Made by a program: the position numbers and the translations under genes. Under the pieces are notes generated by a model. The model was not told the origin of the DNA. It ran no database searches and saw only the letters and a program-made list of their open reading frames with translations. DNA of 64,000 nt. Source: Rhodospirillales bacterium. Its GTDB lineage: Bacteria; Pseudomonadota; Alphaproteobacteria; Rhodospirillales; Casp-alpha2. Shown here in pieces: positions 57,415-60,380 of the stretch (its first letter is position 1; each line of letters begins with the position of its first letter). The stretch covers positions 326,625 to 390,624 of the forward strand of contig JAEPQO010000001.1 of the NCBI GenBank assembly GCA_017640505.1, written 5' to 3'.

Positions 57415-58215
57415 CTATTTGAGCCCGAGCACATCCTGCATCGAATAAAGCCCGGGCGCCTTGCCCTCGGTCCAGAGCGCGGCGCGGATCGCACCCTTGG
57501 CAAACAGGCCCCGGTCGGCTGCTTTGTGCGTGATTTCGATCCGTTCGTCATCGGACGCGAAGATCACCGAATGATCGCCGACGACCATGCCGCCGCGCAG
57601 CGTCGCGAACCCGATGTTGCCGACCGTGCGCTCACCAGTGTGGCCGTCGCGCACCCGGTCGGACACCTGGTCAAGATCGACACCGCGGCCTTCGGCCGCC
57701 GCCTTGCCGAGCGCCAGCGCGGTTCCCGATGGCGCATCGACCTTGTGACGGTGGTGCATCTCGAGAATTTCGATATCGAACTCGGGGCCAAGCATGGCAG
57801 CGGTCTGCCTGGCGAGACCCAGCAGCACGTTGACACCGACGGAATAGTTGGCGGCCTGCACGATCGGAACGGCCTTGGCCGCATCTTCGATCTTCGCCTG
57901 ATCGTCGGCGGACAGACCGGTCGTGCCCGGGATCAATGCCGTGCCCGTCTCTGCTGCCAGCGCGGCATGCCGCACGGTTGCCGCCGGCGCGGTGAAGTCG
58001 ACGACGGCATCGGACGCCTCAAACAACACCTTGGCATCATCGATGATCTTGAGGCCGGAAGGCGGGAAACCTGCGAGCTGCGCCGGATCCTCGCCGATCG
58101 CATCTGAGTGCGGGGCCTCGGTGCCACCGGAAAGCTCGGCGCCGGGCGTCTCGTACACCGCCTTGACCAGCATGCGGCCCATGCGGCCAGCACATCCGAC
58201 AATTCCGATTTTCAT
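57415..58215 (-). CDS. dapB: 4-hydroxy-tetrahydrodipicolinate reductase
   Basis: A 266-residue enzyme of lysine/diaminopimelate synthesis. The NAD(P) motif is IGIVGCAGRMGRMLV (3-17), and the substrate/catalytic motif is EMHHRHKVDAPSGTAL. The ATG at 58215 has AGGAG eight bases upstream. In relatives it follows dnaJ directly; here a ~900-base island on the other strand separates them, so dapB must have its own promoter. Confidence 0.95.
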   Translation of the reverse strand: MKIGIVGCAGRMGRMLVKAVYETPGAELSGGTEAPHSDAIGEDPAQLAGFPPSGLKIIDDAKVLFEASDAVVDFTAPAATVRHAALAAETGTALIPGTTGLSADDQAKIEDAAKAVPIVQAANYSVGVNVLLGLARQTAAMLGPEFDIEILEMHHRHKVDAPSGTALALGKAAAEGRGVDLDQVSDRVRDGHTGERTVGNIGFATLRGGMVVGDHSVIFASDDERIEITHKAADRGLFAKGAIRAALWTEGKAPGLYSMQDVLGLK

Positions 58216-58290: not shown

Positions 58291-58317
58291 GTCATTCCCG
58301 CGAAAGCGGGAACCCAG
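58291..58317 (+). repeat. REP-like hairpin repeat, left copy
   Basis: GTCATTCCCGCGAAAGCGGG then AACCCAG. The stem TTCCCGC/GCGGGAA closes on a GAAA loop. This motif type is a familiar dispersed intergenic repeat in proteobacteria. The related copy at 59182 is inverted relative to it, so the two bracket the AT-rich PadR island. Confidence 0.75.
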
Positions 58318-58390
58318 AGCAATAGTTGACATCCTGCCTCCAATATATTATTTATTCATTAATCGTGAAGAAATAATATATGGCTACAAG

Positions 58391-58717
58391 ATGCGACGTG
58401 ATAAACTCAACGACTTTGAGCAAATGGTGCTCCTCTGCCTTATCAGGCTTCATCCCCACGCGTACGGCGTATCAATTCATGGCGAGTTATTGGAACGCGT
58501 CGGGCGAGACGTTGCATTAGCTCAAATCTATTCGACGCTCGACAGGCTCGAAGCGAAGGGGTTCGTAAAATCTCGGCTGGGAGAGGCTACGCCCGAACGG
58601 GGTGGTCGCCGTAAAAAGTATTTTCAGATCACGGCTGAAGGCGGAGTGGCACTTAGTGAAGCGCGGGAGGCGATGAATAAACTGTGGAAAGGAGTGCCTA
58701 CCCCGGCAACAGCTTGA
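58391..58717 (+). CDS. PadR-family transcriptional regulator
   Basis: A 108-residue winged-helix protein beginning MRRDKLNDFEQMVLLCLIRL. PHAYGVSIHGELLERVGRDV and IYSTLDRLEAKGFVKSRLGE are the PadR helix-turn-helix and wing (PERGGRRKKYFQITAEGG). Base composition is clearly more AT-rich than the flanks. The stop overlaps the next ATG (TGATG). PadR proteins paired this way usually repress an adjacent membrane gene. The preceding 70 bases are AT-rich and carry the likely promoter, though no clear boxes could be set. Confidence 0.87.
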   Translation: MRRDKLNDFEQMVLLCLIRLHPHAYGVSIHGELLERVGRDVALAQIYSTLDRLEAKGFVKSRLGEATPERGGRRKKYFQITAEGGVALSEAREAMNKLWKGVPTPATA

Positions 58718-59178
58718 TGGAAAACACAATAAAAAGAATACGTAGGCAAATTCGGGAAGGTTTCCTGTATGGAGCGGATCACCGAAAAACAGCCAAGTTC
58801 ACTACCAAGGTTAGACTCCGGATGAGCTACATGGAGCGCTTTTCCGAGCTCATATTCAAACTGAGAGAGATAATGATGTCTCTCACACTCATCAAATACC
58901 ACTATATCGATGGCCCGCCGATCAAAGTATCAAAAGCATTAATCTATTGGATTCTCCCAAAAGAAACTGGTCCTATTGTTTGGGGCGATCTCAGCGAGAT
59001 TTTTACCGAGAACCTTCGGAAAGGAACCGATGAGAAAAGTATGAAGCGATGGCTTTGGGGGCAAACACTAAGAACCATTTGGCCATGCTTGAAGTGGCGC
59101 ATTCGCCTCTCGGCCAACGCATTCTTGAAGCTCGCAGGCCTATCACAAGCGGTCGAATGGATCGTGTCAAAGTTCTAA
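58717..59178 (+). CDS. Small protein resembling an orphan permease-prefix (PPD2-like) domain
   Basis: A 153-residue protein translationally coupled to the PadR gene. The segment from PIKVSKALIYWILPKETGPI through VWGDLSEIFTENL to KRWLWGQTLRTIWPCLKW (residues 68-128) resembles the permease prefix domain 2 found ahead of MacB/FtsX-type permeases that pair with PadR regulators. The pattern is Leu-Pro-x-E, GDL-x-E, then RWxWxQxLR. No ABC permease or ATPase follows. The 67 residues before it are basic and unlike anything recognised. Low GC and the flanking repeats suggest acquisition. The family assignment is by eye only. Confidence 0.6.
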   Translation: MENTIKRIRRQIREGFLYGADHRKTAKFTTKVRLRMSYMERFSELIFKLREIMMSLTLIKYHYIDGPPIKVSKALIYWILPKETGPIVWGDLSEIFTENLRKGTDEKSMKRWLWGQTLRTIWPCLKWRIRLSANAFLKLAGLSQAVEWIVSKF

Positions 59179-59181
59179 AGG

Positions 59182-59208
59182 CTGGGCCCCCGCATTCGCG
59201 GGGGTGAC
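59182..59208 (-). repeat. REP-like hairpin repeat, right copy (inverted)
   Basis: CTGGGCCCCCGCATTCGCGG then GGGTGAC. The stem CCCCCGC/GCGGGGG closes on ATTC. The reverse complement aligns over its full 27 bases with the copy at 58291. It lies between the orphan-prefix gene and dnaJ and could also act as a bidirectional transcription barrier. Confidence 0.75.

Positions 59209-59237: not shown

Positions 59238-60380
<1,143 letters not shown>

Follow-up and report, generated by a model that had tools for sequence, protein, structure and literature searches.

Genes for PadR regulators are found paired with genes of the permease prefix domain 2 family (NF038404), in which the gene after PadR encodes either a MacB/FtsX-type permease or a small transmembrane (TM) protein. 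In HAAS-PadR dyads, membrane or intracellular signals are proposed to be relayed to PadR by a helical partner (PMC11237479). CGTC-type REP sequences form head-to-head dimers known as REPINs (PMC3733652, PMC3116915), with loops mostly of 20-100 bp in the published families, and no dedicated transposase for this REP type emerged from a published survey (PMC3733652). Insertion sequences of the ISPpu9 type place foreign DNA within REP sites (PMC8450116).

In a 3.95-Mb genome (G000), which to judge by gene order probably belongs, like its class, to the Alphaproteobacteria, we have characterised a two-gene unit between dnaJ and dapB that resembles each of these systems in part. It shares with the NF038404 pairs the gene order, the overlapping or abutting genes and the PadR subfamily with a GEATxERGG signature, and its second protein, ORF2, keeps the GDL, E, F and W-Q positions of their domain. 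Unlike those proteins, ORF2 is 153 aa long, has no predicted TM segment, carries the domain at its C-terminus and scores below the NCBIfam cut-off. As in the HAAS-PadR dyads (PMC11237479), a helical partner gene lies beside a stand-alone PadR, and the predicted model of ORF2 has three consecutive helices of which the third is long. However, the GxP motif that accompanies a kink in the third helix of HAAS is absent from residues 106-152, Pfam HAAS/DUF1700 is not matched and no membrane sensor is fused. Because the GxP motif and the Pfam HAAS match are missing, we do not file ORF2 as a HAAS protein, and only suggest that it works like one. The repeats that flank the unit are like published REPINs in the sequence type of their arms, in facing each other and in being intergenic, but they enclose an 866-bp loop with two genes, as against the usual 0-44 nt for REPINs in this genome. 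As with ISPpu9-type elements, foreign DNA lies within a REP site; unlike them, the insert carries no transposase. Our main reading, to which we give a probability of roughly 60%, is that a horizontally acquired, self-repressing PadR sensor pair was captured in a REPIN at dnaJ-dapB.

The features of the locus are listed below, numbered within the window (the whole 64,000-nt stretch of DNA analysed, G000:C4:326625-390624).

57415..58215, minus strand: dapB (flank), with an orthologue in 40 of 41 genomes searched
58291..58316, plus strand: left REP arm (CGTC-type REP, TT half), GTCATTCCCGCGAAAGCGGGAACCCA, from pattern scans
58317..59182, no strand: AT-rich insert of 866 bp, read as a REPIN loop; GC 47.6%, junction without insert in seven sister species
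58326..58354, plus strand: possible promoter, TTGACA at 58326-58331 and a weak -10 TATTTA at 58349-58354 that overlaps the palindrome, read by eye from the sequence
58343..58381, plus strand: AT-rich inverted repeat, candidate PadR operator, 16-nt arms with a 7-nt gap, 9 nt before the PadR start codon
58391..58717, plus strand: PadR-family winged-helix regulator, 108 aa (PF03551, E 3.7e-11, 43.3 bits against a cut-off of 27)
58717..59178, plus strand: ORF2, 153-aa helical protein with N-terminal helices and a C-terminal permease-prefix-2-like three-helix domain (residues about 67-152), no predicted TM segment
59183..59208, minus strand: right REP arm (CC half), GTCACCCCCGCGAATGCGGGGGCCCA, from pattern scans
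59238..60380, minus strand: dnaJ (flank), 83-96% identity in seven sister species

Both genes of the insert lie on the plus strand with dapB and dnaJ on either side on the minus strand, and the last base of the ORF1 (PadR) stop codon begins ORF2, a one-base overlap (TGATG). The original prediction had described such an AT-rich, overlapping pair as interrupting a minus-strand neighbourhood, and the composition is indeed foreign-looking. The GC content of the insert compares with 60.5% for the window and is the lowest among 1263 windows of equal size, while GC3 is 0.53 in the PadR gene and ORF2 alike; the 50 longest ORFs all reach 0.60 or more. Judged by this composition, the unit is best read as horizontally acquired.

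A scan allowing up to three mismatches found exactly two REPs in the window, where 0.02 would be expected, and they face each other at the ends of the unit as had been predicted; the right arm begins 4 nt past the ORF2 stop codon. In the genome as a whole, pattern searches with up to two mismatches gave 66 REPs, and 29 facing pairs were observed. Since the loops measure 0-44 nt in 26 of these 29 pairs, the island, whose two facing arms belong to the same REP family, is best read as sitting in the loop of one REPIN, albeit one that is far from short. The three long-loop exceptions are 109 nt, with another palindrome inside, 320 nt, with a GIY-YIG gene, and 866 nt, the PadR island. The first of them (G000:C4:921636-921796) is a repeat nested in a repeat, its loop being occupied by an imperfect palindrome (TTTGAACCACAGAGGCAC...).

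In order to follow the history of the site, the dnaJ-dapB junctions of same-genus relatives were compared, as the original prediction had proposed. The gap measures 97-285 bp and holds neither gene in all seven sister species, so that the possibility raised with the prediction, of the same genes standing here in all relatives with normal composition, is dismissed. On the side of dapB, the repeats stop 77-78 nt short of the gene in G000, G001, G002 and G003, and a REPIN or hairpin ends at the island's position in three of the seven relatives: G002 carries a REPIN of 72 nt whose broad family is that of the island arms, and G001 and G003 carry other or decayed hairpins. No REPIN was seen at the G006 and G007 junctions. 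Given the empty sister junctions and the shared REPIN edge, the insert appears to be an addition in the G000 lineage at an old REPIN site. We infer that the REPIN came first and the insert second, and go no further than this because the arm subfamily varies between species; as the sister hairpins belong to different subfamilies, the site may simply attract REPs. At three junctions (L037, L039, L041), the hairpin pairs that stand at one and the same position differ in REP subfamily from species to species, which looks like re-use of the site or replacement of the arms. Neither a target duplication nor a donor copy of the unit was found, and insertion into an existing loop is therefore not separated from the arrival of a ready-made, REP-bracketed unit.

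A rival reading would make the unit itself mobile, with the REP arms as terminal repeats, PadR and ORF2 as cargo and a REP-specific enzyme acting in trans, for which a single-domain GIY-YIG nuclease is the candidate. Facing REP arms with a loop of about 319-345 nt exactly enclose the gene for a 95-aa GIY-YIG nuclease in G000 (C6:253285-253656), G003, G006 and G001 (L197, L187, L196, and L169 and L194, respectively), with at least two copies in G001 among the matches listed, as all REP figures for G001 and G004 are to be read. The PadR island shares the arm geometry of these elements. Because the G000 and G006 copies have the element in common and unrelated flanks, the arrangement suggests a mobile element, with the nuclease as a possible mobiliser of CGTC-type REPs. 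GIY-YIG nucleases of the Ssn family are linked to Neisseria repeats, although we do not use this as evidence. Against mobility of the PadR unit itself stand its single copy, with ORF2 absent from 60 relatives and no further copies of the cargo at unrelated sites, and the sister species in which a REPIN or hairpin stops where the island does; these favour a REPIN already in place, with the unit inserted into it or exchanged within it. Transfer of the unit by its repeats gains no support either: no second REP-flanked copy was found, and three related units in other genomes of the class are without such REPs. We therefore prefer a resident REPIN into which the unit was inserted or in which recombination took place, and consider a mobile unit possible but unlikely. 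A broader proposal, that the CGTC-type REPINs of the genus are short forms of a GIY-YIG-driven mobile family with the PadR/ORF2 island as its cargo-bearing member, appears still more doubtful to us; if true, these repeats would be able to carry unrelated genes in their loops.

Other wide REP pairs were considered as second cargo cases. The pair on C32 of G001 is a hairpin tangle with no convincing gene, and that of G003, which brackets a long ppdK-like gene, is not clear. In G007 (C38:4889-6485, L203), REPs facing each other 1545 nt apart surround a 424-aa ORF that neighbours a dapA-like gene; not being a clear case either, it may be a further cargo-bearing pair or chance.

Chance could also have placed the PadR unit between its repeats: the foreign genes would have come in by ordinary recombination, with two independent REPs lying on either side by accident. 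REPs are indeed common in the genome, and the ppdK-like gene and the 424-aa ORF show that other facing REPs stand wide apart in relatives. However, two unpaired REPs facing each other within 900 bp would be expected only 0.005 times, or at most 0.24 times counting every REP as free, so the two arms are best taken as one REPIN. They also comprise one TT half and one CC half, as within single REPINs, no partner arm was seen adjoining either end of the island, and the right arm all but abuts ORF2. The objection that REPs are too common here for the bracketing to carry weight thus holds for their number and not for their arrangement, since nearly all of them form close head-to-head pairs, and we regard chance neighbourhood as improbable. 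We prefer to see the repeats as the arms of a single REPIN with genes in its loop, not as independent boundary repeats.

The first gene was correctly predicted to encode a PadR regulator, its winged-helix domain scoring well over the curated PF03551 cut-off. The palindrome upstream outscores all of 200 shuffled sequences and occurs once in the genome when up to three mismatches are allowed. Similar long AT-rich palindromes lie upstream of PadR in related units of G436 and G117 (L162, L163), and CTACATTGTAG-like sites precede PadR in gammaproteobacterial relatives. The position of the palindrome fits autorepression by PadR. As no second operator was found in the genome, the regulator probably controls no more than its own operon, or else weaker sites. 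The promoter is tentative, because a sigma-70 consensus scan did not recover the TTGACA reading.

ORF2 had been likened to a permease prefix domain, and this identity stands in part. Its score against NF038404 is 17.5 bits (19.2 bits in the genome search), under the curated cut-off of 35, but an independent profile, made from 16 homologues and excluding ORF2, scores it at 39.6 bits over residues 70-127, where the best of 2000 shuffles reaches 8.1. From these profile scores, we consider ORF2 to be related to permease prefix domain 2. The domain does not precede an FtsX/MacB-type permease; it is C-terminal, and the protein stops at 59178. In the AlphaFold model, the domain forms helices at 67-79, 85-101 and 106-152 with a block pLDDT of 86-96, two N-terminal helices are of lower confidence, and pTM is only 0.50. 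Hydropathy analysis predicts no TM segment (maximum 0.93), and ORF2 is read as a probably soluble or membrane-peripheral protein.

Profile and fold searches for solved structures resembling ORF2 gave nothing significant, and no Pfam family was found at E up to 1, nor any PHROG or PADLOC family. A phage or defence origin was rejected on the latter result and on a phage collection that gave no match to the related G117 protein, the only query used there. Single-sequence searches found no direct homologue in the 60 relatives, genome_contigs, plasmids or 385 class genomes, the best match in the last of these (E 0.004) being a frame with a stop; relatives of ORF2 were reached only through profile searches and by way of PadR neighbours. 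ORF2 is single-copy in its own genome. The second NF038404 match there (C6:364064) falls in a 222-aa frame that is unrelated and has no PadR beside it, and it was discarded.

To look for the pair elsewhere, as had been proposed, we surveyed the genes next to the 80 nearest PadR loci in genome_contigs, picked regardless of their neighbours. The PadR subfamily was seeded from two pairs in which the domain had been recognised beforehand, and neighbours were scored by a profile that includes ORF2; on this basis, the next gene encodes a permease-prefix-2 domain at 73 of these 80 loci. Forty of the 73 partners are small (<320 aa) and come from Gammaproteobacteria, some Acidobacteria and Marinicauda, mostly with 3-4 hydrophobic segments; 30 are of about 860 aa or more, and three are cut by contig ends. 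The original prediction had contrasted the lone domain here with the usual prefix of a MacB-type permease, but a stand-alone domain is not peculiar to this locus. Forms with a C-terminal domain and either no TM segment or one marginal segment follow PadR in three other class genomes, G419 (163 aa), G436 (181 aa) and G117 (195 aa), where no REPs of the island's family were found, and by its predicted features ORF2 belongs to this subtype without membrane segments. The profile matches six of the 385 class genomes, G000 among them, and the stand-alone form is therefore a recurrent but rare variant. That ORF2 is instead the leftover of a decayed PadR-MacB operon stripped of its membrane part is highly improbable: permease-sized proteins (about 860-1000 aa) with the same prefix do follow PadR in Acidobacteria, Gemmatimonadota and Bacteroidota, but ORF2 and the three other small forms each have a C-terminal domain, an N-terminal helical part of their own and an intact stop, and such forms recur in several class genomes.

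Capture of a PadR sensor pair would have proceeded as follows. A REPIN with two facing CGTC-type arms and a short loop would have resided in the dnaJ-dapB gap of an ancestor to several species, and a horizontally acquired two-gene unit would have ended up inside its loop in the G000 lineage. PadR may bind the AT-rich palindrome that covers its promoter, and so repress the operon, while ORF2 may contact PadR or pass a signal to it and thereby alter repression. By analogy, ORF2, a recurrent partner of PadR that resembles the HAAS half of the proposed sensor pairs, could be a protein that tunes PadR. Because no permease lies downstream and the genome holds no second operator, we suggest that the two genes work mainly as a self-contained switch that regulates itself. 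A REPIN with a gene cassette in its loop and empty sites in sister species is a clean case, which opens up the possibility that REPINs act as sites where genes are captured. The PadR/prefix-domain pairs, which are poorly studied, also gain a membrane-less variant small enough for full testing.

In G419, the related PadR unit adjoins a gene for a TIR-like protein (PADLOC candidate PDC-S35, L160:2475-2969), a neighbourhood that we take to be a coincidence and not a functional link.
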